A stretch of 64,000 nt of DNA from Methylomonas koyamae. GTDB lineage: Bacteria > Pseudomonadota > Gammaproteobacteria > Methylococcales > Methylomonadaceae. The first letter of the stretch is position 1; the number at the start of each line of letters is the position of its first letter. This document shows positions 33,168-52,967 of the stretch, one piece after another. The translations under genes and the position numbers were made by a program. The notes beneath the pieces are model-generated. The model did no database searches and was not told the origin of the DNA. It was given only the letters and a program-made list of their open reading frames with translations. The DNA lies in NCBI RefSeq assembly GCF_006483455.1, contig NZ_PPPU01000011.1, positions 1 to 64,000 of the forward strand, in the 5' to 3' direction.

Positions 33168-34004
33168 TCAGGCCGACAAGGCCAACGAATCTTCCAAAGC
33201 AATTTCCAGCTCGGCCAGTGCGATTTCCGACAAACCGAGCCGGGCCGCTTCTTCGCTGCTGGAGACCACCAAGTCCGGTTGGGGTTGGGAGGCAATACCC
33301 AGCTTGTACGCCACCATGTCGGCTATCCGCACCACCAATTCGACGGTACCGGTATCCTCGTTAACCGGCCGATGATGCGACTCGGCGACGTTACAATAGG
33401 TTTCGGGCAGATTCCAGGACCGCAGCAGCCAGGCGCCTCTGGCTTCGTGCTGGCGAATCAGCAATTCGAGCTGCAAATCCTCCGGCAGATTCAGTTTGGG
33501 ATCCTGAGTCCGCAAATCATCCAGGCAGCGCAATAGCAGCAATTCGCCGATGTCGTGAAACAGGCCGGCCATGAAGGCCTCTTCGGCGATCGCATGGAAG
33601 GACAGCCGTTTCGCCAACCATTCCGCGCCCAACGCCACCGCCACGCTATGCTGCCACAGCTTGGCCATGTATTTTTCAGTCGCAGAGTCCCGCGCGCTGA
33701 ACATGCCCTTTTGCATTACCAACGTCGCAATCTGGACGATACGCGGCAAGCCCAAACGCACGACTGCGTCTTTGACGGTGTTGACCGAACTCAGGCCGGC
33801 ATAAAACGACGAATTCGCTACCCGCAGGATCTGGCTGGCCAAGCTGGCGTCCATTGCCAATTGTTTGGCGATGTTATCCAGCGAACGGTTTTCGTCTTGC
33901 AAGGCCTGCCGCAATTCCGTTACCGCGCGCGGGAACACCGGCAGCGCACCGGCGCCGCTGGCGATGGATTCATCGATCATATCCGTTAATGATTTTTCGC
34001 TCAT
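33168..34004 (-). CDS. HDOD domain protein
   Basis: A 278-residue HDOD protein, the third in this window. LPVFPRAVTELRQAL starts the domain, followed by MDASLASQILRVANSSFYAG and VKDAVVRLGLPRI. Unlike the other two copies the central motif keeps HD (FMAGLFHDIGELLLL), and a later AESHHRPVN carries a His pair, so metal binding is at least possible. It lies 18 bases behind an MshEN-containing secretion-type ATPase, suggesting that the two act together, perhaps in c-di-GMP-linked control of surface structures. Confidence 0.87.
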   Translation of the reverse strand: MSEKSLTDMIDESIASGAGALPVFPRAVTELRQALQDENRSLDNIAKQLAMDASLASQILRVANSSFYAGLSSVNTVKDAVVRLGLPRIVQIATLVMQKGMFSARDSATEKYMAKLWQHSVAVALGAEWLAKRLSFHAIAEEAFMAGLFHDIGELLLLRCLDDLRTQDPKLNLPEDLQLELLIRQHEARGAWLLRSWNLPETYCNVAESHHRPVNEDTGTVELVVRIADMVAYKLGIASQPQPDLVVSSSEEAARLGLSEIALAELEIALEDSLALSA

Positions 34005-34022
34005 GTTAGTTAGTTCATCAAA

Positions 34023-35921
34023 TCAGCGGCTGCCCAGCAAACGGCGCAGCTCGTAAAGGGGACGGGGCTTGCCGAAGCGCGGCAGGTTGCGGATCACTTC
34101 TTGCAGTGAAGTAATTCCGGCCGCAGCCTTGACCAGCCCGTCTTCGACTAAAGTCACCAAACCGGCGGTCTCCAGACTGACGCGGCGGATTTCGTAGGAC
34201 GTCTTGCGTTGTAAGATCGCATCCTTGACCGACTCATTCATCGACAACAACTCGAACACGCAAACCCGCCCGGAGTAACCGGTAAAGCGGCATTTATCGC
34301 AGCCCTTGCCCAACAGAAAATGGGCGCCGATCACGTCGTCCGCCGTCAAATTCAGCCGTCGGAGCAGGGCCGGATCGGGCTGGAACGGTTCGGCGCAATG
34401 CTTACAGACTCGGCGCAACAAACGCTGGGCAACCACCGACACCACGGTCGACGAGATCAGAAACGCCTCGATCTCCATGTTCAACAGACGCAACAGGCCG
34501 CCGATACTGTCCTCGGTATGGAATGTGGTCAATACCTTGTGGCCGGTCAGCGCGGCCTGGATTGCCGTATCGGCCGAGAATCGGTCGCGAATCTCGCCGA
34601 GTACGATGATATCCGGATCCTGGCGCACGATATGGCGCAGGGTTTCTTCGTAGGTCAAATTGATTTTCGGGTTGATCGAGCACTGGGCAACGCCATCGAT
34701 CACGTATTCCACCGGGTCTTCGGCCGAAACGATACTGACTTCTGGACCATTCAAATAGTCGACCGCACTGTATAGGGTCGTGGTTTTGCCCGAACCGGTC
34801 GGCCCGGTAATGATAATCACGCCGGTCGGGACATCCAGCGAATCCAGCAGGAACCGCTCCAACATCAGCGGCGCCATCCCCACTTCATGAATATCCAGCA
34901 ATTCGGTTTTGCGATTCAACAAGCGCAGTACGATCTTCTCGCCGTTGATGGTACTGAAAAACGACGCCCGCATGTCGATCACATGATGGGTGGCGACCTG
35001 CTCGAACAATACCCGGCCGTCCTGATGCCGGCGCTTTTCGGCGATATCGGCGCCGGCCATGACCTTGATCCGGCTGATCATGGCCTGGGCCATTGCAACC
35101 GGAAAATCCCGATAGTGCACCATCAGGCCGTCGATCCGAAAACGGACGCGCAACTTATGCTCCAACGGCTCGATATGGATATCGCTGGCCGCTTGGCGGA
35201 TTGCATCCTCGAAAATTTCATTGACCGAAGCAACGGCAGACTGCTCTCCGAAGGCGGCTTTCTCCTCCCGGGCATTACGTTCGTAATTCAGCAAAAAACG
35301 CATTATCTGGGAATAACGGCCCACTGCCGGAATCACCTCGGAACCAAGCACGTGTCGTGCCGTTGCGATCGCGGTTTGATCCATGGGGTCGCCGAACGCG
35401 ACCAACACACCGTCGACTTGTTTTTCGATCGGCAGAAAGCAGTGCTTGTTCGCCGACTTCAGCATCGGTTTGGTCATCAGACTCTGATCGACGTTGGCGA
35501 GGCTGAGGTCGATCACGGATATACCCATCAGATCGGCCAGAACCTCCAGCATTCTCGATTCGGAAATCAGATTGCGCTCGACCAGGATTTCGCCCAGGCG
35601 TTTGCCTCCGCCTGCCTGCTGTTGCTGGGCCAAAGCCAGTTGCAAATCGCTATCGCTGATAAAACCGAATTCGACCAGAAACAGGCCCAATTTGACTTTT
35701 AACGGATGACTGCGGAACACCTCGACCAACTGCGCATGGGTGACGTAACCCAAATCGCACAACACCACCAGAATCGGCTTGGGCGATTCCAGCTTGCCCT
35801 GCACGCGCTGCGCATATTTCAATTTGGCGCCGTCAAGCACCTCCTGCTCGACTAAAAGTTGGAGGAAGGAATCGATGAATTGAGTGCCGGAATCGGCAGA
35901 GCTAACGTCGCGGGATTTCAT
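34023..35921 (-). CDS. GspE/PilB-type secretion ATPase with MshEN repeats
   Basis: A 632-residue hexameric-type ATPase of the type II secretion/type IV pilus assembly family. ATG 35921 has an AAGGTGAG ribosome site and replaces a longer frame. The N-terminal region carries tandem MshEN-like c-di-GMP-binding repeats (KLGLFLVEFGFIS from residue 77; RLGEILVERNLIS from 108; a degenerate earlier copy near 50). The ATPase core shows Walker A GPTGSGKTT with Lys379, an Asp box (SAEDPVEY), Walker B (IIVLGEIRD) and the HTEDS His box, plus a zinc tetracysteine (CKHC...CDKC). No other secretion or pilus gene is near, so it is an orphan; an HDOD gene follows. Confidence 0.88.
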   Translation of the reverse strand: MKSRDVSSADSGTQFIDSFLQLLVEQEVLDGAKLKYAQRVQGKLESPKPILVVLCDLGYVTHAQLVEVFRSHPLKVKLGLFLVEFGFISDSDLQLALAQQQQAGGGKRLGEILVERNLISESRMLEVLADLMGISVIDLSLANVDQSLMTKPMLKSANKHCFLPIEKQVDGVLVAFGDPMDQTAIATARHVLGSEVIPAVGRYSQIMRFLLNYERNAREEKAAFGEQSAVASVNEIFEDAIRQAASDIHIEPLEHKLRVRFRIDGLMVHYRDFPVAMAQAMISRIKVMAGADIAEKRRHQDGRVLFEQVATHHVIDMRASFFSTINGEKIVLRLLNRKTELLDIHEVGMAPLMLERFLLDSLDVPTGVIIITGPTGSGKTTTLYSAVDYLNGPEVSIVSAEDPVEYVIDGVAQCSINPKINLTYEETLRHIVRQDPDIIVLGEIRDRFSADTAIQAALTGHKVLTTFHTEDSIGGLLRLLNMEIEAFLISSTVVSVVAQRLLRRVCKHCAEPFQPDPALLRRLNLTADDVIGAHFLLGKGCDKCRFTGYSGRVCVFELLSMNESVKDAILQRKTSYEIRRVSLETAGLVTLVEDGLVKAAAGITSLQEVIRNLPRFGKPRPLYELRRLLGSR

Positions 35922-36293
35922 TCTCACCTTGAACTGAAGACCGATCGGAGTCCGTGCGTAATAGACACGGGACAAATTCCGCTTTCCATGAATACTAAGA
36001 ATACTAAGTTACTAGATTTTGACGGTCCAATACAGCGTTATATTGTTACAAACCCGCGTAAATTTTACGACCGCCAAGCGGTTGCCGTTGAGCCCGGCAC
36101 CGACCCATTCGAAAACAACAGTTTACGCGCCCTAGAGGGCATTTTTGGCTCTAGCTTATAAGCCCGGCCGCCAGGAACACCGCGACACCAGTAACTCGCT
36201 GTCTTTATAATTGATTAGGCAATATTCTGCCACTCCAGTCCGCCAACGGCGGACTCCAGCACAAACCCGCTTTCGCCGCAGGAGGTCTTTATC
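35922..36293. other. Intergenic region between ATPase and ethylene-receptor-like kinase
   Basis: Divergent promoters for the leftward ATPase and rightward kinase should lie here. The left part is AT-rich around 35985-36070. A strong ribosome site (AGGAGG) precedes the kinase ATG. A short frame at 35988-36161 is listed separately. No repeats or RNA genes were recognised. Confidence 0.4.
35988..36161 (+). CDS. Possible small hypothetical protein
   Basis: A 57-codon frame starting MNTKNTKLLDFDGPIQRY and ending in LEGIFGSSL. Composition is protein-like and it occupies an otherwise empty intergenic region, but the ribosome site is weak and I know no family. It could be a chance frame. Confidence 0.25.
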   Translation: MNTKNTKLLDFDGPIQRYIVTNPRKFYDRQAVAVEPGTDPFENNSLRALEGIFGSSL

Positions 36294-38066
36294 ATGCAAA
36301 GCATTGCCGAATTTTTCGGGACCAAGGATTTTATGCCGCACGGATATTGCCTGGCCTGGAGTCCGGGCCTGCTCTGGCTGATGGTGACTTCCGATGCGAT
36401 TATGGCTTTGGCCTACTTTACCTATCCGATCGGCATCGCCTACTTCGTTTGGAAACGGAAAGACTTGTCCTACCGCTGGCTGTACCTCGGCTTTTTTATC
36501 ACCTTCATTCTGACCTGCGCCGCCACCCATCTGTTATCGGTGGTGACGGTCTGGATTCCGCTTTACTGGCTGGATGCCTATGTCAAAGCCGTATCCGCCC
36601 TGGTGGGCATCGCCACCTCTTTCGCGATCTGGTGGGTCATACCGCGCGCGCTGAAATTGCCAAGCCCGGCGGAATTGCAGCGCGCCCGCGATCAGGCCGA
36701 AGCCGCCAACAAAGCCAAAAGCGTGTTTTTGGCTAACATGAGCCACGAACTGCGCACACCGCTGAATGCCATTCTCGGTTTTTCCAGCCTGATGCAAAAA
36801 GATCCGCAGCTCCCGGCCAGCCAACACCACAATCTGGCCATCATCAACCGCAGCGGCGAACATTTGTTGAGCTTGATCAACGACGTACTGGAAATGGCAA
36901 AAATCGAGTCCGGCCGGCTGCAATTGGAACGTAGCCGCTTCGATCTCGGCGCCATGATCCGCGACGTCAGCGACATGATGTCGATGCGGGCGCGCGACAA
37001 GGGTTTGCAATTGTTAATCGACCAAACTTCGGAATTTCCGCGCTTCGTTTGCGGCGACGAGGCGCGTCTGCGCCAAGTGTTGATCAATCTGCTCGGTAAC
37101 GCCTTGAAATTTACCCAGCAAGGCGGCGTCACACTGCGTCTGGGCACACAACAAAACAACCACAGCCATCTAAGGATCGAAGTGGAAGATACCGGTCCCG
37201 GTATCGCCGACAGTGAGCGGGAGCACATCTTCGAGCCCTTCGTGCAACTCGGCGACCAGGGCGACAGTAAAGGCACCGGCTTGGGCTTGACCATTACCCG
37301 CCAGTTCGTGCAACTGATGGGCGGACAGCTGACGCTGGAAAGTAGCGTCGGCAAGGGTTCGTTGTTCCGCATCGATTTACCGCTGCCGGAGTTGGCGGAG
37401 CCGGAGGTCCGTGCCAGCGCAGCGGATAGCCTTGGCGAAGTGACCGGACTGGCCCCCGGCCAACCGCAATATCGGATTTTGATCGTCGAGGATCAACTGG
37501 AAAACCAGCTGCTACTCGGCCGGCTGATGACCGATATCGGCATGCAAATCCAGGTAGCCAAAGACGGCGCGCAAGGCGTGGCAGTGTTCGAATCCTGGCA
37601 ACCGCACCTGATCTGGATGGACCGGCGCATGCCGCACATGGACGGCATGCAAGCCACCCAAGCCATCCGGCAGTTGCCAGGCGGTGATCGGGTCAAGATC
37701 GTCGCGGTCACCGCCTCCGCGTTTATGGAGCAGCGCGAGGAAATGCTGCAAGCCGGTATGGACGACTTCATCCGCAAACCCTACCGGGCCGAAGAAATTT
37801 ACGCCTGTCTGGCCAAACACCTCGGCGTCGAATTCGTTTACCGGACGGAAATCGCCGCTGCCCAGGACGCAAGCTTGGACCCGGCGATGATTGCCGCCCT
37901 GCCGGAACCATTGCGGAAAGACTTGAAAACGGCACTGGAAAGCCTGGAACAAGCGCGCATAGCCGAAGTCTTGGAACGAATCGGCGGCGTAGATCGGCCG
38001 CTACAAAAAACCCTGGCGCTACTGGTCGACAACTTCGACTATCCAGCTATTCTTAAATATCTGTAA
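36294..38066 (+). CDS. Hybrid histidine kinase with ethylene-receptor-like sensor domain
   Basis: A 590-residue membrane kinase. Residues about 28-125 form three helices strikingly like the ethylene-binding domain of plant ETR1: [20 protein letters not shown] aligns with its first helix (ETR1 Asp25, Tyr32 and Pro36 correspond to Asp34, Tyr41 and Pro45), then YRW, then CAATHLL with Cys75 and His79 matching the copper ligands Cys65 and His69. A short coiled coil leads to the HisKA domain (His151 in SHELRTP), HATPase (about 250-365, with DTGPGI and GTGLGL) and a receiver with Asp443. The tail is helical without an HPt histidine. A REC-HD-GYP gene follows 23 bases on and is the likely output. Sensing of ethylene or another copper-binding signal is inference. 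Confidence 0.88.
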
Positions 38067-38089: not shown

Positions 38090-39088
38090 GTGAACGGAAA
38101 AATCCTCGCCGTCGACGACACCCCGGATTCCCTAAAATTGTTGACCCAACTGTTGCAGTCGGAGGGCTACGAGATCCGCTCGGCCATCAATGGCGAACTG
38201 GCTTTGCAGTCGGCGTTACTCAATCCGCCGGAATTGATCCTGCTCGACGTGCGCATGCCGGACATGGACGGCTTCGAGGTATGCCGCCGCTTGAAAGCCT
38301 ACCCGCAAACCCGCAGCGTGCCGGTCATCTTCGTTACGGCGTTATCGGAGATCAACGAAAAAGTCGACGGCTTTAAATTGGGCGCCGTCGATTTTATTAC
38401 CAAACCCTACCAGCGGGAGGAGTTGTTGGTCCGGGTCCGCACCCATCTGGAAATGGCGCGCTTGCGAAACGGCCTGGAATCTCTGGTCAACGAACGCACC
38501 GCGGAATTGAAAGCCAATATGCTGTCGTTCGTCACCGCGATCGCATCGACGGTGGAAATGCGCGATCCATACACGGCCGGCCATCAACGCCGCACGGCTC
38601 ATCTGGCGTCGGCAATCGCCCAACAAATGCGACTCGGCCCGGATTTAATCGAAGGCCTAAGCCTGGCCGGGGTGGTTCACGACATCGGTAAAATCAAAGT
38701 GCCGGCCGAAATTTTATGCAAACCGGGAAAGCTGGACGAACTGGAATACGGCCTGATCAAACTCCACCCGCAAACCGGTTACGAAATTCTGAAATCGATC
38801 GATTTTCCCTGGCCGATCGCCCAGACCGTATTGCAACACCACGAACGACTGGACGGATCGGGCTATCCGCAAGGCAAAACCGGGGCGGACATTCTGCCGG
38901 AAGCGAAGATTCTGGCTATCGCCGACGTGGTCGAAGCGATGATTTCCCACCGCCCTTACCGGCCCGGCCTGGGCATAGCCGCCGCTTTACGGGAGATTGC
39001 CGAGCACCGCAACACGCTCTACGACGCCGCTGCGGTCGATGCCTGTCTGGCTCTGTTCCAAGAAAAGCATTACCAACTGCCGGTTTGA
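38090..39088 (+). CDS. Response regulator with HD-GYP phosphodiesterase domain
   Basis: A 332-residue REC-HD-GYP protein that should hydrolyse cyclic di-GMP when phosphorylated. The receiver (1-120) has Asp53 in LLDVRMPDMDG. A coiled linker follows, then the HD-GYP domain (about 145-330) with HD at 197-198 (VVHDIGKIK), HHE at 250-252 and DGSGYP at 255-260, so metal ligands and the GYP signature are complete. The start is GTG at 38090. It lies 23 bases behind the ethylene-receptor-like kinase and is its probable phosphorelay target. Confidence 0.93.
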   Translation: MNGKILAVDDTPDSLKLLTQLLQSEGYEIRSAINGELALQSALLNPPELILLDVRMPDMDGFEVCRRLKAYPQTRSVPVIFVTALSEINEKVDGFKLGAVDFITKPYQREELLVRVRTHLEMARLRNGLESLVNERTAELKANMLSFVTAIASTVEMRDPYTAGHQRRTAHLASAIAQQMRLGPDLIEGLSLAGVVHDIGKIKVPAEILCKPGKLDELEYGLIKLHPQTGYEILKSIDFPWPIAQTVLQHHERLDGSGYPQGKTGADILPEAKILAIADVVEAMISHRPYRPGLGIAAALREIAEHRNTLYDAAAVDACLALFQEKHYQLPV

Positions 39089-39127: not shown

Positions 39128-40093
39128 ATGATGAACATCCCGAGTTTCTATCTGGAACCCGCCAATTATGCCGCTGACTTTCCCGACCTGCATTACCTCA
39201 GAACCGAAGTGTTCGTCGTCGAGCAAGGTATTGCGCCGGAAATCGAATTCGACGATTTGGACCGGGATTGCCGGCATCTGATTGCCCGCGACGCCGAGCG
39301 GCGGCCCATCGGTTGCGGCCGTCTGTCGCCGACCGGCAGAATCGGCCGAATGGCGGTACTGCCGGCATGGCGCCGGCAAAAGGTTGGCGAATCGCTATTG
39401 CGCGGCTTGATCGAACTGGCCGGCAATTTGGGGCTAAGCGAAGTCACCGCCCACGCCCAAACCGCAGCGCTGGGGTTTTACCGGCGCTACGGTTTCCAAA
39501 CCGTCGGCGCCGAGTTCCTCGAAGCCGGGATTCCGCATACCGCAATCCGTCTGACCATTGCCGCGCCGGCGCCGATGTCCCGCCAGAGTGAGGACGCGCC
39601 TGAACCAAGCGTACCCGCCATACGCCTGCAAACGCCGGAAGCGGCGGCGGAAGCAGCCTTGGCTTTGGTCCAGCAAGCCCGCCGCCTGCTCTGCATCTAC
39701 AGCCGCAACCTGGATTCGCGGCTCTACAGCCAAAAACCGCTGGTAGAAGCCTTGAAACAATTCGCGTTGCGTAACCAGCGCGGCGCCGAAGTCCGCATCA
39801 TCGTTCAGGAACCGGAAGCGATTCGCGGCCAACAACTTCCTTTAATCGATTTGGCGCAACGTTTGCCGTCTTATATTGCGATCAGGGCAGCGGTCGAAGC
39901 CGAGGATTTGAATTTTAGGCCGGCATTCATCGCCAACGACAACGGCGGTTATTTGTTTCAATTGCAGAGCGACCGCTACGACGGACACTGGAGCCCGAAT
40001 TTACCGGCGCAAAACCGGCAATTGAGCGAGGAATTCGAACGGGTATGGCAAAGGGCGCGGATTTGCAGCGAGTTCCGCGCCTTGGCACTTTAG
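39128..40093 (+). CDS. GNAT acetyltransferase fused to a C-terminal PLD-like domain
   Basis: A 321-residue fusion. Residues about 5-145 are a GNAT N-acetyltransferase of the ElaA-like kind: VFVVEQGIAPEIEFDDLD, then GRIGRMAVLPAWRRQKVG as the acetyl-CoA loop (motif A) and ALGFYRRYGFQTVG. After a Pro/Ala linker, residues about 165-320 form a second alpha/beta domain (LLCIYSRNLDSRLYS, VEALKQFALRNQRG) of the type annotated DUF7931, related in appearance to phospholipase-D-like folds but without an HKD motif. Substrate is unknown. It follows the HD-GYP gene by 39 bases and may be in the same transcript. Confidence 0.8.
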   Translation: MMNIPSFYLEPANYAADFPDLHYLRTEVFVVEQGIAPEIEFDDLDRDCRHLIARDAERRPIGCGRLSPTGRIGRMAVLPAWRRQKVGESLLRGLIELAGNLGLSEVTAHAQTAALGFYRRYGFQTVGAEFLEAGIPHTAIRLTIAAPAPMSRQSEDAPEPSVPAIRLQTPEAAAEAALALVQQARRLLCIYSRNLDSRLYSQKPLVEALKQFALRNQRGAEVRIIVQEPEAIRGQQLPLIDLAQRLPSYIAIRAAVEAEDLNFRPAFIANDNGGYLFQLQSDRYDGHWSPNLPAQNRQLSEEFERVWQRARICSEFRALAL

Positions 40094-42426: not shown

Positions 42427-43117
42427 ATTGCCTTTCTCCAATTACAGTTGAACGAAACCTACGGGAAGGCGGGTAACGGCATTCCCGGACATCGACACTG
42501 CAAGCAAATTCGCGGCCAATTCTCGGTTAGCCGGGCAGCGGGATTGCCGCTTTCAGGATATTTTTAAAAACAAGGATTTAGCCATCATCCTTAGCGCAAA
42601 TCCGGCATTGGCAGCCCGATAATGGCCCGCGCCCATCGTGTTTTGCAGGTTCGGACACGACAATTTGTCGGCTTTGCATTGTGCGCCGGTAAGGCGCACC
42701 CGGTTAAACCCCAACGCTCTGTAGCCGGAATTACTCGGGCCGGCTGTGCACGTCGGGCAAATCGAACATAGCGGATAGGTCAGGAAACGTTAAACCTAGA
42801 AAAAGCAGTTGAGCCGAAATAGAGCCCGTTCGTGCTGAGATTCGAAGGATGGGCGGGATTTTTGATTCACCCAACGGACCAGCGTGTTGTGAGCCACTCA
42901 TGCTTCGATCTTGCTCAGCATATATGCCCTAGAAGGCACGAAAGGCACACAACACACGTCAACGACTCGTTCCAGATGAAACAAAGACAGACAGCGGCGA
43001 TAGCCGCGGTTGGTGTTAGATGTGGTATAGGCCAGCGTTCGATAGAACAATTTGAATAACCGGCTAAAATTCAGGGTTTCCGAAACCGTAGGAATAGTCT
43101 GACGGGTGCTTCGAATA
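42427..43117. other. Long intergenic region before the giant kinase
   Basis: About 690 bases without a convincing gene. A perfect hairpin, GTGCGCC-GGTAA-GGCGCAC (42681-42699), resembles the dispersed GGTGCGC palindromes found in many proteobacterial genomes. The right part must contain the promoter of the giant kinase. Two overlapping frames of 75-77 codons on opposite strands at about 42830-43130 look like chance. Confidence 0.5.
42681..42699. repeat. Palindromic repeat (GTGCGCC type)
   Basis: Seven-bp perfect stem GTGCGCC/GGCGCAC with GGTAA loop in a noncoding region. There is no T tract, so a dispersed palindrome is more likely than a terminator. Confidence 0.5.
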
Positions 43118-46100
43118 ATGAATGATTCCATCCCAAGCCTTGATGATTTGGATTTCCGCTTACTGTTCGAATCGTCGCCCGACCTTTACCTGGTGTTAAA
43201 TCCACAATTGGAAATCGTCGCCGCCAGCGATGCCTATACCCGCGCCACCTTGACTCGCCGGGAAGACATATTGGGGAAAACGATGTTTCAAATTTTTCCC
43301 GACAATCCCGACGACCCGACGGCGGAAGGCCAGCGCAACTTGCGCGCGTCCTTGCAGCGGGTGTTGTTGTCCGGAAAACCCGACACCATGCCGGTACAGA
43401 AATACGACATCCCTAGACCCGACGGCAAGGGGTTTGAGCAGCGGTACTGGAGCCCGATCAATATCCCCATTCTCGGCAAGGACAGCAATATTGCCTATGT
43501 GCTGCATCGCGCGGAAGATTTAACCGAGTTTATCCGCGTCAAACAACTGGGCGTTGAGCAAAGCCAACTCAACGACACACTGCGCGCCCAGGCCGTAAAA
43601 ATGGAAGTTGAGCTGTTCGCCCGCACCAAGGAAGTTGCATCCGCCAGCGCGGAGTTAAAGTCCGCCAACGAGGAACTGTCCCGCTTGTACGCCAAAACCT
43701 TGGAGTTGGACGAACTCAAAACGCAGTTTTTTGCCAACGTCAGCCATGAATTTCGCACGCCGCTGACGCTGATGCTAGGGCCTCTGGAAGAATTGCTGGC
43801 CCAATTTGCTCCAACGAGTTCAAGCCCTGACGCTGCCTTGCATGAACAACTTGATCTGGTGCATCGCAATGGCCTGCGCCTACTCAAATTGGTGAATGCG
43901 TTGCTCGATTTTTCGCGTATCGAAGCCGGTCGCATGGATGCGTCCTATGAAGCGACGGACTTGGCGACCTATACCGCCGAGCTGGCGAGCGTATTCGGCT
44001 CCGCCACTGCAAAAGCGGGGTTGAAGCTGATCGTGTCGTGCCCGGCAATGGCCGAACCGGTGTATGTCGATCGGCAAATGTGGGAAAAAATCGTCATTAA
44101 TCTGCTGAGCAACGCCTTCAAGTATACCTTTGCCGGCGAAATTGAAGTTTCGCTACGTCAATGTGGACAAAGGGTTGAGCTGGCCGTGCGCGACACGGGT
44201 GTCGGCATTGCCGCTGACCAGCTTAACCATGTGTTCGAACGCTTCCATCGGGTGCCGAACGTGCGCTCGCGCAATCACGAGGGAACCGGTATCGGCCTGG
44301 CTCTGGTGCGCGAGTTGGTCCGCTTGCACGGCGGCGACATCTCGGTCACCAGCACGCAGGGTTTCGGCAGCACCTTTACCGTTGTCATCCCGACCGGCAC
44401 AGCACACTTGCCGGCTGACCATATTCACCCTGCCAAAGTGCCCTTCTCTGCCTGCACTGGCGCGGAATTTATGGCCGATGAAGCGTGGCGTTGGGAAGTG
44501 GGAGCGGAACATGAAAATGCCCTCGGTCCGCACATAGATTCGGTTGAATCGATAGGGTCTACTGCGGGCGTGAGCGCACACATTGTCATTGCCGATGATA
44601 ACGCCGACATGCGCAGTTATGTTGCCCGGCTGTTGCGGGTACAAGGCTACGACGTAACAGCGGTGCGCGACGGCTTAGCGGCGCTGGCAGCAGTACGCCA
44701 GCGCCGACCGGATCTGGTGCTCACCGACATTATGATGCCGGGTCTGGACGGCATCGGTTTGCTGAGCGCCCTGCGGGAAGATCAAGAAACCAGCACGATT
44801 CCGGTCATTTTGCTCTCGGCTCGGGCCGGAGAAGAAGAACGCATCGAAGGCCTGAAACACCGAGCCGACGACTACCTGACCAAGCCCTTCAGCGCCCGGG
44901 AACTACTGGCTCGTGTTGGGGCATACATTGAAACAGCACGGCTACGCAAAGAGGCTGAAATCCAGTTACGTATCCAGGAAAACGAACGCGAATTTCGCGC
45001 CTTTTTCGATCTGGCCGCCGTGGGCATCGCGCAAGTCAGTCCCGATGGACGGTGGATGAGAGTCAACCAAAAACTGTGCGACATCGTCGGCTATTCTCGG
45101 GAAGAACTAGTAACGAAGACATTTCAAGACATCACTCACCCGGATGATCTCCATACCGATCTCGGCTATATGCAGAGGATGCTGATCGGAGAGATCGATA
45201 CCTACTCCTTGGAGAAGCGTTATTTGCGTAAGGATGGCGCCGTCGTCTGGATCAATCTGACCGTCGCCCTGGTTCGTGGCGATACCGGACAGCCGAGGTA
45301 CTTCATCTCTGTAGTAGAAGACATCACCGGGCGTAAACAACTTGAGATTGAGCGGCAGAAATTCTTCCTGCTGGCTGAAAGCAGCAGCGAATTCATTGGC
45401 ATGTGCGACCTCGATATGAATCCCCTCTATGTTAATCCCGAGGGTCGGCGCATGGTCGGTCTACCGGATATGGCCGCCGCCTGCCGGGTCAAGGTACAGG
45501 ACTACTTCTTTCCGGAAGATCGGCGTTTCATCGCTGCGGAGTTCTTCCCGCGCGTGCAACGGGAGGGGCACGGCGACGTGGAGATCCGCTTACGGCACTT
45601 TCAGACCGGCGAACCGATTTGGATGAACTACTACCTGTTCAGTGTCTACGACGCCGCCGGCATGCCCATCGGCTGGGCAACTGTCAGCCGCAATATAACC
45701 GAACGCAGACAAGCAGAGGCGGCGCTGCGCGAGAGCGAGTCGCGGCTGCGGTCTGTTACGGATAACATATCCATCGGTATTGTCACGCTTGATCGCCATC
45801 GGCAATACAGGTTCGTTAACCCTGCCTATGTCCGTATTCTTGGCCTTGCTCAGTCAGCCGACGAGCTGATTGGCAGGTCGCCGTCCGAGGTACTTGCATC
45901 CAGCTATGCGACGCAGATTTCGCCACGCCTCGACCGAGCCTTCGCCGGTGAAAAGGTGGTATACGAATTGATTCGGCCACTTGCCTCTGAGGCCGCGCCA
46001 AGACAATACACCGTCATCTACGAGCCGATACGTGATGGCGAAGAAATTGATGGCATCATTGTCATCATCTATGACATTACCCAGCTGAAGCAGACTGAAA

Positions 46101-49100
46101 ATGCCTTGCGCGAGAGCGAGCGCGAATTTCGAGTTCTAACCGAGGCCATGCCGCAAATTGTCTGGGCGACACGCCCTGACGGCTGGAATGTCTATCATAA
46201 CCAGCGCTGGGTCGAATATACCGGTCTGACACTTGAAGAAAGTTATGGTCATAGCTGGATAGAACAAGTTCACCCTGATGATAGGCAACGTGCCTGGGAA
46301 GCCTGGCAACGCGCGACCCAGCATCATGACAGCTACTCCGTGGAATTTCGCTTGCTACGGGCAGACGGCGTATACCGGTGGTGGTTGGCCCGGGGCATGC
46401 CACTGTTAAACGCACAAGGGCAAATCGAAAAATGGTACGGCACCTGTACCGACATTCAGGAGTTAAAAGAAGCGGAAACCGTTATCCGTGAAAATGAAAC
46501 CAGGCTGCATTTTGCTTTGGAGATGTCGAATACCGGCGCCTGGGAAGTGGATTTGGAAACGCACGCGGCGTATCGCTCAATCGAACACGCCCGTATTTTC
46601 GGCTATTCCGACACCGCGTCGGCATGGTCGGTCGACAAATTCCTGGAGCATGTGCTGGCGGCAGACCGGGCCAGGGTCGCGGCAGTGCTGCAAGAGGCGT
46701 TTGCCAGCGGCGGCGAAGGCAAATTCGAATGCCGGATTCGGCGTACCGATGGCGAAATCCGCTGGATCATGGTCGCCGGCCGCTATCGCATCCACCGAAC
46801 GGACGGCAAAAGCCAGGTCGCCGTGGGCGTCATTCAAGACATTACCGACAGTAAACTCTTTCAGGAAGAACTCAAGCAACACCGCGACCAGTTGGAAATA
46901 TTGGTTGCCCGCCGCACCGAAGAACTGGAAAAAGCCAAGGCCTTGGCGGACACCGCCAACCATGCCAAGAGCGCCTTCCTGGCCAATATGAGCCATGAAA
47001 TCCGCACGCCGATGAATGCCGTGCTCGGTTTTTGCTATCTATTGGAACAACGTCATCTGGACGGCGAATCGCTGGCCTTGGTGCGCAAAGTCCACAATGC
47101 CGGGCATACGCTATTGTCCCTGATCAACGATATCCTCGACTTTTCCAAGATCGAGGCTGGGCGGCTGGATATTGAGCGCGCGCCGTTCAAACTGACCGAA
47201 ATGCTGGACAACCTTGCCGCTATCATGGCGACGGCCGCCCACGATAAAGACCTGGAATTGATCATCACCCCACCCGCCGAAATCGACGCCTTGGTTGGCG
47301 ATGCCTTGCGCCTCCAGCAAATATTAATCAACTTGCTCAGCAACGCGATCAAATTTACCGAACGCGGCGAGGTCGAGTTGCGCGTTAGCGTGGAATCTGC
47401 GGACAAACAACAATGTCAGCTGCGTTTTGGGGTGCGCGATACCGGCATCGGCATTTCCAGCGCACAGCAGTCGCTGATTTTCTCGGCTTTCGGCCAAGCC
47501 GATAGCAGCATCAGCCGCCGATTCGGCGGCACCGGCTTGGGCTTGAGCATCAGCATGCAACTGGTGGAACTGATGGGCGGCAGCCTGCAAGTGACCAGCG
47601 AAGTCGGCCAGGGTAGCGAATTCTGGTTCGTGTTGCCGTTGCAGCGCGACCAGCGCGTGGAACGCCGGCCTAGCGAACTGGCTCGGCTCGAACTGCTGAT
47701 CGCAGATGACTGCGCCAGCGTGCGCGAGGCGCTGGCCGTTGTGGCTAACTCTTTGGGTTGGCCGGCCGATACCGCCGCTTCCGGCGAATCCGCCCTGATG
47801 CAAGCACTGACCAGGATGGATAGCCAACGTTTTTACGATGCCATCGTATTAGATTGGAAAATGCCGGGGCTGGACGGATTGAGTGCCGCTAAAGCCATAC
47901 GCCAAGCGCTTCAGGAAAAACGCCAGGACTTGGACCCGCCGATACTACTGATGGTCGCCGCTCATTTGCGCGAAGAATTATTGGCCCAACCGGGTATCGA
48001 GACAGTGGCCAAGGTACTCAGCAAGCCGGTCACCGCCTCGACGCTCTACTCTGCCGTCGCCGACTCGTTAAACCAACGCGGTCTGGGGCTATTTCGGCCC
48101 GATCCGCCGCCGATCGCCGCCGCCGGCAATCGCCGCATTCCCGGCGTGCGCGTACTGGTGGTCGACGATAGCGATATCAACCGGGAAGTGGCAAAAGGCA
48201 TCCTGGAAGCAGATGGCGCAATCGTCGATACGGCCTGCGACGGCCAGGACGCGCTGGAATGGCTGCGAGTCCACCCCGATACGGTGGATATCATATTGAT
48301 GGACTTACAAATGCCGCGCCTGGACGGCTATGCCGCCACCCGCATTATCCGCGAGGATGAACGCTGGCGGGAGTTACCCATCGTCGCACTGACCGCCGGC
48401 GCCTTCCAGGAATTGCGCGATGCGGCGCAGGCATCCGGCATGAGCGATTTTGTAGCCAAACCGTTCAACGTGGCGCAAATGATGGAAACCATTCAACGCT
48501 GGACCGGATGCTCGGCAGGAAAGGCCATCTCGGGCGTTAGCGGCGCAAGCGTGGCCGTCGGCTCGGCAAGTGTATCGCCGCCGCGGCCGGCGACCGGCGC
48601 TGGAGAACCCGAATTGCCGGCTATCGATCTGGCGGCCGCGCGCGGCCAATGGGGCCAGCTCGACGTCTATCGCACTTATCTGGACAAATTCGTCGCCGCG
48701 TACGCGGTGTGCGGAACCTCTATCGCCGCCGCCTGCCATGACGGCGACCTGAAAACTGCCGGGGATCTGGCACATAAACTGTACGGCGTGGCCGGAACTT
48801 TGCGGCTGTCCCGAGTCGCCGAGCTGTCCCGCAAACTGGAAACACGCTTGAATGGGGGCGAAGCGGCATTTAAACTGGCGGCAGAATTGCAAGCCGCGAT
48901 AGATCAGGTATGCGCGGCAGTCCACGCTTGGCCTGAAACCGAAAACCCCGCGGTCGAGCCGGAGCCGGCTGCCGGCCCGCTTGGGGACGGCTTGCTTGAT
49001 TTGTTCGCGGGCATGCTGGAAGCGCTCGACCGTAACGATCCCGATGATTCCGAAATCTGGCTGGACCGGCTGCGGCAGCACCCGGACCCCATCCAACTGA

Positions 49101-49198
49101 CCGAGTTGGACGCGCTGCTGGCCGACTTCGATTTCCGCGGGGCGGAGGCCGCCGTACGCAGCCTGGTGCAGCACCTGAATTTATCGATACCGGAGTAA
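43118..49198 (+). CDS. Giant cytoplasmic hybrid histidine kinase with two kinase modules
   Basis: About 2026 residues from ATG 43118 (positions here count from a GTG four codons upstream). Order: PAS (about 15-140); coiled coil; HisKA with His214 (SHEFRTP); HATPase (about 325-450); receiver with Asp541; then about five PAS domains (630-1260); a second HisKA with His1297 (SHEIRTP); HATPase (about 1405-1525, GTGLGLS); receiver with Asp1583; receiver with Asp1733; HPt with His1890 (AHKLYGVAGT). No membrane segment or signal peptide, so it senses cytoplasmic cues. The parts allow a complete internal phosphorelay. The next gene, REC-HD-GYP, begins three bases after the stop and is the likely output. 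The ligands of the PAS domains are unknown. Confidence 0.92.
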   Translation: MNDSIPSLDDLDFRLLFESSPDLYLVLNPQLEIVAASDAYTRATLTRREDILGKTMFQIFPDNPDDPTAEGQRNLRASLQRVLLSGKPDTMPVQKYDIPRPDGKGFEQRYWSPINIPILGKDSNIAYVLHRAEDLTEFIRVKQLGVEQSQLNDTLRAQAVKMEVELFARTKEVASASAELKSANEELSRLYAKTLELDELKTQFFANVSHEFRTPLTLMLGPLEELLAQFAPTSSSPDAALHEQLDLVHRNGLRLLKLVNALLDFSRIEAGRMDASYEATDLATYTAELASVFGSATAKAGLKLIVSCPAMAEPVYVDRQMWEKIVINLLSNAFKYTFAGEIEVSLRQCGQRVELAVRDTGVGIAADQLNHVFERFHRVPNVRSRNHEGTGIGLALVRELVRLHGGDISVTSTQGFGSTFTVVIPTGTAHLPADHIHPAKVPFSACTGAEFMADEAWRWEVGAEHENALGPHIDSVESIGSTAGVSAHIVIADDNADMRSYVARLLRVQGYDVTAVRDGLAALAAVRQRRPDLVLTDIMMPGLDGIGLLSALREDQETSTIPVILLSARAGEEERIEGLKHRADDYLTKPFSARELLARVGAYIETARLRKEAEIQLRIQENEREFRAFFDLAAVGIAQVSPDGRWMRVNQKLCDIVGYSREELVTKTFQDITHPDDLHTDLGYMQRMLIGEIDTYSLEKRYLRKDGAVVWINLTVALVRGDTGQPRYFISVVEDITGRKQLEIERQKFFLLAESSSEFIGMCDLDMNPLYVNPEGRRMVGLPDMAAACRVKVQDYFFPEDRRFIAAEFFPRVQREGHGDVEIRLRHFQTGEPIWMNYYLFSVYDAAGMPIGWATVSRNITERRQAEAALRESESRLRSVTDNISIGIVTLDRHRQYRFVNPAYVRILGLAQSADELIGRSPSEVLASSYATQISPRLDRAFAGEKVVYELIRPLASEAAPRQYTVIYEPIRDGEEIDGIIVIIYDITQLKQTENALRESEREFRVLTEAMPQIVWATRPDGWNVYHNQRWVEYTGLTLEESYGHSWIEQVHPDDRQRAWEAWQRATQHHDSYSVEFRLLRADGVYRWWLARGMPLLNAQGQIEKWYGTCTDIQELKEAETVIRENETRLHFALEMSNTGAWEVDLETHAAYRSIEHARIFGYSDTASAWSVDKFLEHVLAADRARVAAVLQEAFASGGEGKFECRIRRTDGEIRWIMVAGRYRIHRTDGKSQVAVGVIQDITDSKLFQEELKQHRDQLEILVARRTEELEKAKALADTANHAKSAFLANMSHEIRTPMNAVLGFCYLLEQRHLDGESLALVRKVHNAGHTLLSLINDILDFSKIEAGRLDIERAPFKLTEMLDNLAAIMATAAHDKDLELIITPPAEIDALVGDALRLQQILINLLSNAIKFTERGEVELRVSVESADKQQCQLRFGVRDTGIGISSAQQSLIFSAFGQADSSISRRFGGTGLGLSISMQLVELMGGSLQVTSEVGQGSEFWFVLPLQRDQRVERRPSELARLELLIADDCASVREALAVVANSLGWPADTAASGESALMQALTRMDSQRFYDAIVLDWKMPGLDGLSAAKAIRQALQEKRQDLDPPILLMVAAHLREELLAQPGIETVAKVLSKPVTASTLYSAVADSLNQRGLGLFRPDPPPIAAAGNRRIPGVRVLVVDDSDINREVAKGILEADGAIVDTACDGQDALEWLRVHPDTVDIILMDLQMPRLDGYAATRIIREDERWRELPIVALTAGAFQELRDAAQASGMSDFVAKPFNVAQMMETIQRWTGCSAGKAISGVSGASVAVGSASVSPPRPATGAGEPELPAIDLAAARGQWGQLDVYRTYLDKFVAAYAVCGTSIAAACHDGDLKTAGDLAHKLYGVAGTLRLSRVAELSRKLETRLNGGEAAFKLAAELQAAIDQVCAAVHAWPETENPAVEPEPAAGPLGDGLLDLFAGMLEALDRNDPDDSEIWLDRLRQHPDPIQLTELDALLADFDFRGAEAAVRSLVQHLNLSIPE

Positions 49199-49201
49199 GC
49201 C

Positions 49202-50200
49202 ATGCCTTACGGCCCTATTCTCATCGTCGACGATGAGCCCACCAATTTGGCCATCCTACGCCGTACGCTGAAAGACGAGCACCGGTTAATGCTGGCTCGA
49301 AACGGTGCAGAAGCGCTCGAGCTGGCGGGCAAGCATCATCCCTGTCTGATCCTGCTCGATATCCAAATGCCGGAAATGGACGGCTATGCGGTCTGCCGCG
49401 CCCTGAAAGCCAATCCGGCGACCGAGGCCATCCCGGTGATTTTCGTCACCACGCTGTCCGAATTGGAAAAAGAGGAAGCCGGCTTCGACGCAGGCTGCGT
49501 CGATTATTTGATCAAACCGGTTTACCCCCGGATCGTGCGGGCGCGGGTGCGGACCCACCTATCGCTGGTGCAGGCCAAACGCTTGGAGAGAACCTACGGC
49601 GAGGCCATCGCCATGCTCGGTAAAGCCGGCCATTACAACGACAGCGATACCGGGCTGCATATCTGGCGCATCGCGGCTTACGCCCGGCAACTGGCCGAGG
49701 CCGTCGGCTGGCCCAAAGAGAATTGCGTGTTGCTGGAGCAAGCCGCGCCGATGCACGACACCGGCAAAATCGGCATTCCCGACTCGGTGTTACGCAAACC
49801 CGGCCAACTGGATGCCGACGAATGGGCCATCATGCGCAGCCATTGCCGAATAGGCTACGAAATCCTGTCCAGCAGCGACGCGCCGGTATTCGTGTTGGCC
49901 GCCGAGGTCGCACTTCGCCATCATGAGAAATGGGACGGCAGCGGTTATCCCGACGGCTTGCGCGGCGAAGCGATTCCCGAATCGGCGCGCATCGTCGCGC
50001 TGGTCGACGTGTTCGACGCCTTGACCATGAAACGCCCGTATAAAGACGCTTGGTCGGTGGAACGGGCTATGGACACCTTGCGCGAAGGCGCGGGCCGCCA
50101 TTTCGACCCTACCCTGGTCGAGGCATTCGAATCCTGCCTGCCGCGCATTTTGGAAATCAAGGCCGGTTGGGACAGCCGCGAAGCACAGCAAGGCGCCTGA
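49202..50200 (+). CDS. Response regulator with HD-GYP phosphodiesterase domain
   Basis: A 332-residue RpfG-like protein. The receiver has Asp53 ([11 protein letters not shown]); the HD-GYP domain (about 135-330) has HD at 185-186 ([11 protein letters not shown]), HHE at 240-242 and DGSGYP at 245-250, all intact, predicting c-di-GMP hydrolysis. Start ATG lies three bases past the giant kinase stop, a strong sign of co-transcription and of phosphotransfer from the kinase HPt. It has the same length and layout as the HD-GYP protein at 38.1 kb, but about half the residues differ. Confidence 0.93.
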
Positions 50201-50445
50201 TCCCTCCGCCAAAGCCGAATTGGCGCTGCCGCTGCGCGCCCTCCGCTAACCGCAAATAACCAATTCCGACTAATTCTTTGTCAGATTTCAAATTACCGAA
50301 GGCCGTCATTCCGGCATGGATTCATGTCAGGGCGTCCTGCCTGACACCCTGCGGGTAATCCAAATCCGTTCCAGACCGATTTTTGCCGGAGCCGCAGACC
50401 CCAGCTCGGTATTCATACCCTGGCCGCCGGTCGCCGAGTTGTGGT

Positions 50446-50451
50446 TATAAT
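50446..50451 (+). promoter_or_regulatory. Possible -10 box of glcD with no leader
   Basis: A perfect TATAAT ends six bases before the glcD ATG (50457). A start point 6-7 bases after it would fall on the ATG, giving a leaderless mRNA. No Shine-Dalgarno sequence precedes glcD, in agreement, but no good -35 is seen. Confidence 0.3.
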
Positions 50452-50456
50452 CGGCC

Positions 50457-51914
50457 ATGCCTTTATCTGCCGCCTTTACCCGCCAATGCCTCGACTTGCT
50501 CGGTGCCGCCAACGTCGTCACCGAGCCCGAGCGCTTGCGGGTTTACGAATGCGACGGCCTGTCCGCCTACCGCACCCTGCCGGAGCTGGTGGCGCTGCCG
50601 GAAACCGCCGAGCAAGTCCTGGCGTTGATGCGCTTATGCCGCGAGCAGCGGGTGCCGGTGGTGCCGCGTGGCGCCGGTACCGGTCTCGCTGCCGGCGCGA
50701 TGCCGGTGGCCGGCGGCATCGTCATTGGTTTGAGCAAGATGAACCGCATCGTGGCGCTCGATCCGCTGAACCGCACCGCCACGGTCCAGCCCGGCGTCAG
50801 AAACCTGGCCATTTCCGAAGCCGCCAAAGCGCACGGCTTGTTTTACGCACCGGACCCTTCGTCGCAAATCGCCTGCAGCATCGGCGGCAACATCGCCGAA
50901 AATGCCGGCGGCGTGCACTGCCTGAAATACGGCTTGACCGTGCACAACGTGTTGCAGATCAAATTGGCGACGATAGACGGCGAACTGCTGACGCTGGGCG
51001 GCCCCGGCCTCGATGCGCCGGGCTACGACCTGCTGGCGTTGGCGATCGGCTCGGAGGGTTTGCTGGGTATCGTGGTCGAAGCCACGGTCCGGCTGCTGCC
51101 GTTGCCGCCGGCGACGCGGGTGCTGTTGTCGGCTTTTCCCAGCGTCGAGCAAGCCGGCGCGGCGGTGGCGGCCGTGATCAGCTCCGGCTTGCTGCCGGCC
51201 GGCCTGGAGCTGATGGACAACCCGGCCATCCGCGCCACCGAAGCCTTCGTCCACGCCGGCTATCCGCTCGACGCCGCGGCATTGTTACTGTGCGAGCTGG
51301 ACGGTTTGCCGGAACAGGTGGCGGCCGACAGCGAACGCGCCATCGCGGTGCTGACGGCGGCCGGGGCCAGCGAAATCCGCAGCGCCGACGACGAAGCGCA
51401 ACGCAAACGCTTCTGGGCCGGCCGCAAGGCCGCGTTTCCGGCGGTCGGTCGCATTGCCAGCGATTACTACTGCATGGACGGCACGATTCCGCGCAAACAC
51501 CTGGCCGAGGTATTGCGCCGAATTTCCGAGATGTCGGCCGAATTCGGCCTGGCGGTAGTCAACGTATTCCACGCCGGCGACGGCAATTTGCATCCTTTGA
51601 TTTTGTACGACAACGGCGTCGACGGCGAATTTGCCAAAGCCGAGGCCTTCGGCGGCAAAATACTGGAACTGTGCGTCGCGGTCGGCGGTACCATCACCGG
51701 CGAACACGGCGTCGGCAGCGAAAAAATCCCGTATATGTGCGTGCAGTTCAGCAGCGGCGAATTGGAGCAATTCCTGCGCTTGAAACGCGCCTTCGACCCT
51801 TACGCTCTACTGAATCCGGGCAAGGCGGTGCCGACCTTGTACCGCTGCGCCGAACTCGGGCGGATGCACGTCCATCGCGGCGAACTGCCGCATCCGGATC
51901 TGGAGCGATTCTGA
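50457..51914 (+). CDS. glcD: Glycolate oxidase subunit GlcD
   Basis: A 485-residue FAD-linked subunit oxidising glycolate to glyoxylate at the membrane with GlcE and GlcF. The VAO-type FAD-binding domain shows PRGAGTGLAAGA (about 75-86) and DPSSQIACSIGGNIAENAGG (split: DPSSQIACSIGG, NIAENAGG) near 138-158. The C-terminal cap has VFHAGDGNLHP and GGTITGEHGVGSEK, typical for D-lactate/glycolate dehydrogenases. glcE starts on the last base of the stop (TGATG), so translation is coupled. In a one-carbon or aerobic host glycolate arises as an overflow or salvage product. Confidence 0.93.
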   Translation: MPLSAAFTRQCLDLLGAANVVTEPERLRVYECDGLSAYRTLPELVALPETAEQVLALMRLCREQRVPVVPRGAGTGLAAGAMPVAGGIVIGLSKMNRIVALDPLNRTATVQPGVRNLAISEAAKAHGLFYAPDPSSQIACSIGGNIAENAGGVHCLKYGLTVHNVLQIKLATIDGELLTLGGPGLDAPGYDLLALAIGSEGLLGIVVEATVRLLPLPPATRVLLSAFPSVEQAGAAVAAVISSGLLPAGLELMDNPAIRATEAFVHAGYPLDAAALLLCELDGLPEQVAADSERAIAVLTAAGASEIRSADDEAQRKRFWAGRKAAFPAVGRIASDYYCMDGTIPRKHLAEVLRRISEMSAEFGLAVVNVFHAGDGNLHPLILYDNGVDGEFAKAEAFGGKILELCVAVGGTITGEHGVGSEKIPYMCVQFSSGELEQFLRLKRAFDPYALLNPGKAVPTLYRCAELGRMHVHRGELPHPDLERF

Positions 51915-52963
51915 TGGCCGCCGATATCAGCGCCGAATTGCGCGAGCACATCGAACGGGCCGCGGCGACCAACACGCCGCTGCGCATCGTCGGCGGCAAC
52001 AGCAAAGCCTTTTATACCGGACCGGCAGCAGACGTCGAACTATTGGAAGTAGCCGGACACACCGGCATCATCGGTTACGAACCCAGCGAACTGGTGGTGA
52101 CGGTCCGCGCCGGCACCCGCCTCGCCGAGCTGGAAGCGGCGCTGGCCGGACACGGCCAGATGTTGGGCTTCGAGCCGCCTTATTTCGGCGCCGACGCCAC
52201 CATCGGCGGCACGCTGGCCTGCGGCTTTTCCGGCCCGCGCCGGCCATTCGCCGGCAGCGCCCGCGATTTCGTGTTGGGTTGCCAGATCGTCAACGGCCTC
52301 GGCGAGGAGCTGAATTTCGGCGGCCAGGTCATCAAAAACGTGGCCGGTTTCGACGTGTCGCGGCTGATGGTCGGCGCCCTGGGCAGCCTGGGTCTGTTGT
52401 TGCAGTGCTCGTTGCGGGTGCTACCCAGGCCGGAAACCGAGACGACCGTGACATTCGCGCCGGCCGAAGCGGCCGCCGCGATCGAGTTCATGAACCGTCT
52501 GGCCGGCCGGCCCTGGCCGCTGTCGGCGCTGGCTTACGCCGGCGGCCGGGTCCGGGCCAGGCTGTCCGGCGCCTCAGCCGCGGTGAGCGCCGCCGCAACC
52601 AAGATCGGCGGCGATATCGACGCCGACGGCGACGCGTTCTGGCAGGACTTGCGCGAACAGCGTTTGCCGTTTTTCCAGCAGCCGGGCAATTTGTGGCGGA
52701 TTGCGATGGCGCCGGCCGCATCGCAACCCCAACTGGCCGGCGATTGGTTGCTGGATTGGGGCGGCGCCCAGCGCTGGCTGAGAACCGGCGAATCGGCCGC
52801 AGCGGTGCATCGGGCCTGCGCCGCTGCCGGCGCCCAGGCACGGCTGTTTCGCGGCGAGGCCGGTGCGGACCGGCAGCGCATCGCGCCGGAATTGGCCGCG
52901 CTGCAACGCCGCGTGCGTCAGGCCTTCGATCCGCTCGGCCTGTTCGTCCCCCTCCCGGATTAA
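51914..52963 (+). CDS. glcE: Glycolate oxidase subunit GlcE
   Basis: A 349-residue second FAD-binding subunit, shorter than GlcD. The start ATG overlaps the glcD stop (TGATG). FAD-domain features include LRIVGGNSKAFYTG, GYEPSELVVTVRAGTRLAELE and ADATIGGTLACGFSGPRRP, followed by GGQVIKNVAGFDVSRLMVGA. The C-terminal part is short and variable, ending in FDPLGLFVPLPD, which corresponds to the usual FDP-x-G-x-FN end of the family. The rest of the complex is encoded on both sides. Confidence 0.92.
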   Translation: MAADISAELREHIERAAATNTPLRIVGGNSKAFYTGPAADVELLEVAGHTGIIGYEPSELVVTVRAGTRLAELEAALAGHGQMLGFEPPYFGADATIGGTLACGFSGPRRPFAGSARDFVLGCQIVNGLGEELNFGGQVIKNVAGFDVSRLMVGALGSLGLLLQCSLRVLPRPETETTVTFAPAEAAAAIEFMNRLAGRPWPLSALAYAGGRVRARLSGASAAVSAAATKIGGDIDADGDAFWQDLREQRLPFFQQPGNLWRIAMAPAASQPQLAGDWLLDWGGAQRWLRTGESAAAVHRACAAAGAQARLFRGEAGADRQRIAPELAALQRRVRQAFDPLGLFVPLPD

Positions 52964-52967
52964 GCCC

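Follow-up and report, generated by a model that had tools for sequence, protein, structure and literature searches.

A kinase gene of Methylomonas koyamae that encodes a sensor domain like that of plant ethylene receptors raises two linked questions, namely what it perceives and to what output it is wired. The gene lies on the forward strand of the window, by which we mean the whole stretch of 64,000 nucleotides analyzed here. A first-pass annotation had proposed that its product senses ethylene or another small copper ligand and passes the signal to c-di-GMP turnover, and had considered this of particular relevance were the host a methanotroph.

The kinase and its sensor domain

The gene, its likely upstream signals and the main parts of its product are:

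36206-36211, +, candidate -10 box TATAAT, with its first hexamer from 36182 (consensus match only, 10/12)
36280-36285, +, AGGAGG Shine-Dalgarno, eight bases 5' of the ATG at 36294 (sequence)
36294-38066, +, hybrid histidine kinase ETR1_N-HisKA-HATPase_c-REC, 590 aa (ORF list, Pfam)
36369-36659, +, ETR1_N domain, Tyr variant, residues 26-122 (Pfam)
36717-36914, +, HisKA, residues 142-207, phospho-acceptor His151 at 36744-36746 (Pfam, motif alignment)
37476-37805, +, C-terminal receiver (Response_reg), residues 395-504, Asp443 at 37620-37622 (Pfam, motif alignment)

The 4.4-kb region contains six promoter-like sites, whereas shuffled sequence has 2.0 on average. The HATPase_c domain occupies residues 254-365 (Pfam), and HisKA, HATPase_c and REC all display their catalytic motifs, as expected of a hybrid histidine kinase. 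No PAS or GAF domain was found by Pfam between the sensor and the kinase modules.

The protein is a member of the ETR1_N family. Its N-terminal region matches the Pfam profile (PF25487) with 96.6 bits against a cut-off of 27 (E 1.1e-27), far enough above the cut-off to rule out chance resemblance, and the same profile run against the genome stretch gives 101 bits. The ETR1-like sensor read from the bare sequence in the first-pass annotation is thus borne out by a profile comparison, and a better match to an unrelated sensor family, which was held out as the finding that would overturn it, did not emerge: residues 1-130 have no competing Pfam family at E 0.001, a sequence search with the sensor returned zero PDB chains at E 1, and a fold search of the PDB returned none at E 0.001 (best E 0.77, MtTMEM175). 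An AlphaFold2 monomer model of residues 1-149 (mean pLDDT 77.5, 18 rows) predicts sensor helices at 24-54, 61-87 and 91-120, and thereby the three-helix N-terminal bundle of ethylene receptors, with a fourth helix running into the kinase.

A tyrosine clade within the ETR1_N family

The residues that bear on ligand binding lie in two helices:

36393-36428, +, helix 1 site: Asp34 (36393-36395), Tyr41 (36414-36416), Tyr44 (36423-36425), Pro45 (36426-36428)
36507-36530, +, helix 2 site: Ile72, Thr74, Cys75 (36516-36518), Ala76, His79 (36528-36530)

When aligned with plant ETR1, Asp34, Tyr41, Pro45, Cys75 and His79 fall at Asp25, Tyr32, Pro36, Cys65 and His69, with helix 1 unshifted, just as had been claimed for these five residues. 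A mutagenesis paper on ETR1 reportedly includes Y32 and gives the full list of seven residues. According to passages of the papers cited here, ethylene binding to ETR1 requires seven residues (PMC11819568; PMC6682694), with C65, H69, I35, P36, I62 and D25 named as needed (PMC6586836; PMC11819568) and Ile35 described as essential (PMC6586836). The Methylomonas kinase keeps six of the seven (D25, Y32, I35, P36, I62, C65, H69): ETR1 Ile62 is retained as Ile72 and the copper-ligand pair Cys65/His69 as Cys75/His79, and the seventh, Ile35, is replaced by Tyr44, beside the conserved proline. Misalignment as the source of this Tyr was rejected, because the Asp-Tyr-Pro spacings in helix 1 equal those of ETR1. 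Helix 2 is longer than its ETR1 counterpart by one residue, inserted upstream of the site residues. Since the set of seven is incomplete, we would not name the kinase an ethylene receptor at this stage; by its sequence it is a conserved Tyr variant of the ETR1_N family and not a certified ethylene receptor. In alignment A2, which has 18 rows, only eight show Lys at the position of ETR1 Lys91 (eye count), a residue that a passage of PMC11819568 ties to output; this weighs against the mechanism posited below.

The substitution is not peculiar to this protein. Tyr is found at the Ile35 position in 20 of 107 distinct ETR1_N domains, a table from which L111 and L150 were left out as having no alignable domain and in which the groups are defined by the Tyr itself; the 87 non-Tyr domains have Ile (80), Met (4), Thr (2) or Val (1). 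In all 20 Tyr-type domains, ETR1 position 64 is occupied by Thr and position 66 by Ala or Thr, and the equivalents of Pro36, Ile62, Cys65 and His69 are retained. The equivalents of Asp25 and Tyr32 are each kept in 19 of the 20, the exceptions being Asn for Asp25 in L050 and Phe for Tyr32 in L041. The extra residue of helix 2 occurs in every Tyr row and in zero other aligned rows. Together with a tree computed without the trait columns, this insertion supports the clade independently of the Tyr: in the 92-row tree, which is unrooted, uses few columns and has a bootstrap that is not settled, the 21 Tyr rows (including L157) form one branch with support 100/99, and the adjoining group, which joins it with support 97/88, consists of 12 canonical rows. 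This tree excludes eight rows that were degenerate or divergent, and its non-Tyr rows were thinned at 85% identity.

Judging by the sequences, decay of the sensor is unlikely: its conservation exceeds that of the full-length protein (75% versus 53% identity for the pair L039/L068, and 76% versus 50% for L040/L069), and the copper residues persist in every Tyr-type domain. The Tyr clade thus amounts to a natural experiment on what sets ligand choice in a copper pocket. Other departures from the canonical pocket were also seen: Leu at the Ile35 position in the approximately 1300-aa hybrid kinases of the genus (e.g. L196; L196-L204 in part), Ala for Pro36 in its 848-aa GGDEF-EAL proteins (e.g. 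L209; L209-L214 in part), and, in an ETR1_N group of the Gallionella family (L163-L167, L170), Asn for Asp25, with Cys for Tyr32 in two members.

Probable coupling to c-di-GMP

The output side is approached through the flanking genes:

34023-35975, -, type II/IV secretion (pilus) ATPase with an MshE-type c-di-GMP-binding motif (NF053729, 59.2 bits, cut-off 38)
38090-39088, +, REC-HD-GYP response regulator, 332 aa, 23 bp after the kinase (ORF list, Pfam, motifs)

The response regulator has intact motifs (Asp53, LDVRMP, HDIGK at 197-201, HHERLDGSGYP at 250-260), which make it a putative c-di-GMP phosphodiesterase of the HD-GYP type. Such a gene directly follows the kinase in seven of 18 evaluable distinct Tyr-type loci, including one from the Gallionella family (20 distinct loci were examined, two being at or near a contig edge; the neighbors of L157, from G1059, were excluded). 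The seven are L065 (the window's species), L066, L067 (by tblastn only), L073, L075, L077 and L094. The catalytic motifs are present in all the aligned HD-GYP partners, and the partner in L094 is 46% identical. In an eighth locus, L079, the kinase is followed by a receiver gene and then by a REC-PAS-GAF-HD-GYP gene. The kinases of the six paired loci searched are at least 69% identical to that of the window, whereas those of unpaired loci that align over nearly the full length are about 47-53% identical. The remaining 11 of the 18 loci have no HD-GYP gene directly next to the kinase, which means that the clade has no uniform output; other Tyr-type kinases adjoin hybrid kinases (L091, L081) or unrelated genes.

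The pair nevertheless persists where its surroundings do not: seven of the window's other flanking genes were sought and kept in L066, and the next gene, encoding a GNAT protein, is kept in L067, but the search of L073, L075 and L077 turned up none of them (L067, L073 and L075 are on short contigs). The 4.5-Mb genome has only nine HD_5 matches above the cut-off. Among the loci searched, the MshE-motif ATPase stands beside the pair only in L065 and L066 (G106); its motif makes it a possible candidate for a downstream c-di-GMP receptor.

The window holds further genes of related interest. A second pair of a kinase followed by an HD-GYP gene lies at 43106-50200 (+). It consists of a multi-PAS hybrid kinase of 2030 aa that includes Hpt and, 3 bp on, another REC-HD-GYP gene, whose product is again 332 aa long and, by tblastn against L065, 38% identical to the first. 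Of the nine HD_5 matches over the cut-off in the genome, two lie within 12 kb. The pilus ATPase and an HDOD protein (33168-35975, -) are divergent from the sensor kinase. The gene next after the HD-GYP partner (39128-40093, +) encodes a GNAT acetyltransferase fused to DUF7931 and is also present in G106 and G104, which belong to the host's genus. Further on, 50441-54176 (+) encodes FAD-binding and 4Fe-4S/CCG proteins that resemble the products of an operon for glycolate or lactate oxidase; the frame of 840 aa is probably too long.

The host has a second ETR1_N protein, with the architecture ETR1_N-PAS-GGDEF-EAL, on contig C54 (L082:7830-10025). This paralog keeps all seven ethylene-binding residues and is a candidate direct converter of ethylene into a c-di-GMP signal. 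Among the matches listed for the genus, GGDEF and EAL occur together in 22 of the 28 ETR1_N proteins scanned with Pfam, the other six being kinases. The 28 are from 40 proteins among the matches listed, the Tyr-type kinases being excluded; L192 (cut), six look-alikes of the 1300-aa kinases and five of the 848-aa GGDEF-EAL proteins were left out, the look-alikes having been assigned by length and N-terminus. Three other genomes of the family (G048, G176, G056) have the combination in five of the 10 proteins scanned, out of 14 ETR1_N matches, with L248 left out. The rest of the phylum sample has it in none of 29 proteins (from 31 matches listed outside the host), 26 of which have HisKA, and this rules out a universal wiring of ETR1_N to c-di-GMP. 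When the proteins are clustered at 60% identity and GGDEF is called by motif in one member each, it is found in eight of 15 clusters of the family, among the matches listed, versus none of 23 in the rest of the phylum. The counts do not stand for independent events. Even so, several distinct subfamilies of the host family have ETR1_N linked to c-di-GMP enzymes, whereas none of the 29 other proteobacterial proteins does. The c-di-GMP output proposed at the outset is accordingly upheld by the adjacent HD-GYP gene in seven of 18 loci, its intact motifs, the fused paralog and the family census; to judge from these genes and motifs, it is a well-supported reading, and the best-supported part of the interpretation.

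Ligand, distribution and known systems

The supposition that the host is a methanotroph proved apt, as it is a Methylomonas with two AMO/pMMO-family genes. In the family in which 237 genomes were examined, and which we take to be Methylomonadaceae, ETR1_N occurs in 138, versus 29 of 398 genomes in the phylum sample (host included); none of 14 control genomes has it. Tyr-type copies, set apart by an N-terminal identity of at least 68% (next best 57%, among the matches listed) and then checked for the Tyr, occur in 18 of the 237 family genomes, among the matches listed and counting both the window genome and a same-species genome. A scan of 18 named Tyr-type loci placed them in Methylomonas, Methylobacter, Methylococcales, vaguer MAGs, Crenothrix sp. 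D3 and two Gallionella MAGs. Of 150 genomes sampled from the family of one Gallionella MAG, 15 have an ETR1_N match and four the Tyr type; contamination is thought an unlikely origin of the Gallionella copies because four genomes of this sample carry them. In a class sample of 321 genomes, 11 have an ETR1_N match, and among the alignable ones Tyr is found only in the host.

Of the 18 named Tyr-type genomes, 11 gave an AMO/pMMO match. None was found in the three Gallionella-family carriers searched (two Gallionella MAGs and G949), of four, or in the Tyr-type genomes G939, G947, G951 and G954. The completeness of the latter (as G043, G229, G226 and G133) is 72, 99, 91 and 78%, and hence the missing genes are not all due to incompleteness. 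A strict link to methane oxidation is thereby rejected. The relevance to methane monooxygenase that the first-pass annotation had seen stands in so far as the host has AMO/pMMO genes, and is weakened by the occurrence of the clade in Gallionella-family genomes.

We posit a mechanism in which three membrane helices would hold Cu(I) via Cys75 and His79, with Asp34 and Tyr41 nearby, as in ETR1, in a pocket that the clade would have reshaped through the fixed change of Ile35 to Tyr, Thr64, Ala or Thr66 and the added residue of helix 2. A ligand at the copper site would alter the autophosphorylation of His151, and the phosphate would then move to the receiver of the kinase itself, to the REC-HD-GYP protein whose gene lies 23 bp downstream, or to both. 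The REC-HD-GYP protein would lower c-di-GMP, with the MshE-motif pilus ATPase as one possible target. Copper binding, the direction of the signal and phosphotransfer are steps that we infer. The residues retained suggest that the kinase probably works as a copper-based sensor, and we lean, with moderate confidence, towards copper-based small-molecule sensing that feeds c-di-GMP degradation.

Ethylene would be the best single ligand to name, a choice somewhat short of an even chance because one essential residue is replaced. The kinase might yet be an ordinary ethylene receptor that tolerates the Tyr and whose Cu(I)-ethylene binding warns the methanotroph of a gas from which pMMO makes toxic epoxyethane. 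This account is plausible, if rather doubtful: it is favored by the six residues kept, by the frequency of ETR1_N in 138 of 237 family genomes as against 29 of 398 in the phylum sample, by the ethylene-binding AzoEtr1 in the same domain family (PMC11819568, in a passage; L115), and by the toxicity of ethylene to methanotrophs, which a passage of PMC11507031 describes as likely due to co-oxidation to epoxyethane. However, it sits uneasily with a Tyr, Thr64, Ala or Thr66 and helix insertion that run clade-wide, when 80 of 87 other domains have Ile, with the complete set of seven residues in another copy of the same genome, and with three Gallionella-family Tyr carriers in which AMO/pMMO was not detected. 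The original notion of ethylene or copper-ligand sensing therefore survives as to the domain family and the copper-site residues; as to ethylene for this particular copy, the change of Ile35 to Tyr44, shared by all clade members, and the paralog with seven of seven residues speak against it.

These same pocket changes, fixed while the copper-site residues are retained, are what would be expected had the sensor been retuned, with Tyr44 and Thr74 admitting O2, NO, CO or acetylene, or reporting copper loading. That the clade is common to methanotroph lineages and the Gallionella family, that its neighboring group in the unrooted tree is canonical and that a canonical paralog exists in the same genome all point the same way, although a fixed Tyr may have other reasons, such as helix packing. 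We hold such retuning as a tentative possibility, and equally tentatively consider that it may be of use at the oxic-anoxic interfaces where methanotrophs and Gallionella meet. A domain that binds neither copper nor gas, and acts as a membrane anchor or as a responder to membrane or redox state, would accommodate the loss of one essential residue and the losses of Asp25 in L050 and Tyr32 in L041; it is improbable in light of the equivalents of Cys65, His69, Pro36 and Ile62 in all 20 Tyr-type domains and of a sensor better conserved than the whole protein. The fullest version of the retuned copper sensor, in which a lineage of methanotrophs and Gallionella relatives retuned the domain and the ETR1_N family of Methylomonadaceae was rewired to c-di-GMP, is rather unlikely as a whole. 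If true, it would mean that an ETR1_N domain has become, by a fixed Tyr, a copper sensor for some other small molecule, and that canonical and retuned copies alike have been rewired to c-di-GMP turnover in a methanotroph family.

With regard to precedents, a limited literature search found no report of ethylene receptors in methanotrophs, and the word receptor is absent from the main text of the study of ethylene toxicity in these organisms (PMC11507031). The same limited search, in the portions of the literature it covered, found no description of an ETR1_N-GGDEF-EAL fusion, an earlier report of which is possible.

Plant ETR1 shares with the Methylomonas kinase the three-helix Cu(I) sensor, with D25, Y32, P36, I62, C65 and H69 matched; the latter differs in the change of Ile35 to Tyr, the longer helix 2 and the lack of a detected GAF domain. 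It also has a two-component partner gene next door rather than the plant CTR1 route, as a passage of PMC7700396 describes it. As far as the cited passages go, AzoEtr1 of Azospirillum brasilense Sp7 likewise combines ETR1_N, a histidine kinase and an adjacent response-regulator gene (PMC11819568), and shares the Cys75 and His79 positions. However, it has all seven residues (PMC11819568; L115) where the Methylomonas kinase has Tyr at the Ile35 position, and it has a PAS domain and a separate receiver protein of 135 aa (PMC11819568) in place of the latter's own receiver and HD-GYP partner. AzoEtr1 (525 aa) and the overlapping 135-aa receiver gene lie on the plasmid ABSP7_p1 (L115), for which the plasmid collection lists no feature at this place. 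In the cyanobacteria, SynEtr1 (Synechocystis slr1212) and GeiEtr1 and GeiEtr2 of Geitlerinema, compared here by their description in parts of PMC6682694, are also kinases with ethylene-binding domains, but SynEtr1 carries a cyanobacteriochrome module and the Geitlerinema proteins keep all seven residues; a gene that groups with GeiEtr2 codes for a diguanylate cyclase domain (PMC6682694, in the same parts).

The closest parallel in output comes from the ETR1_N-PAS-GGDEF-EAL proteins of the host family, including the C54 paralog, which have the same sensor family and a c-di-GMP output, but by direct fusion to the c-di-GMP enzymes and, in the paralog, with a canonical pocket. With ETR1_N present in over half of the family's genomes and GGDEF-EAL its commonest output in the genus, among the matches listed, ethylene sensing by methane-eating bacteria therefore becomes a testable proposition.
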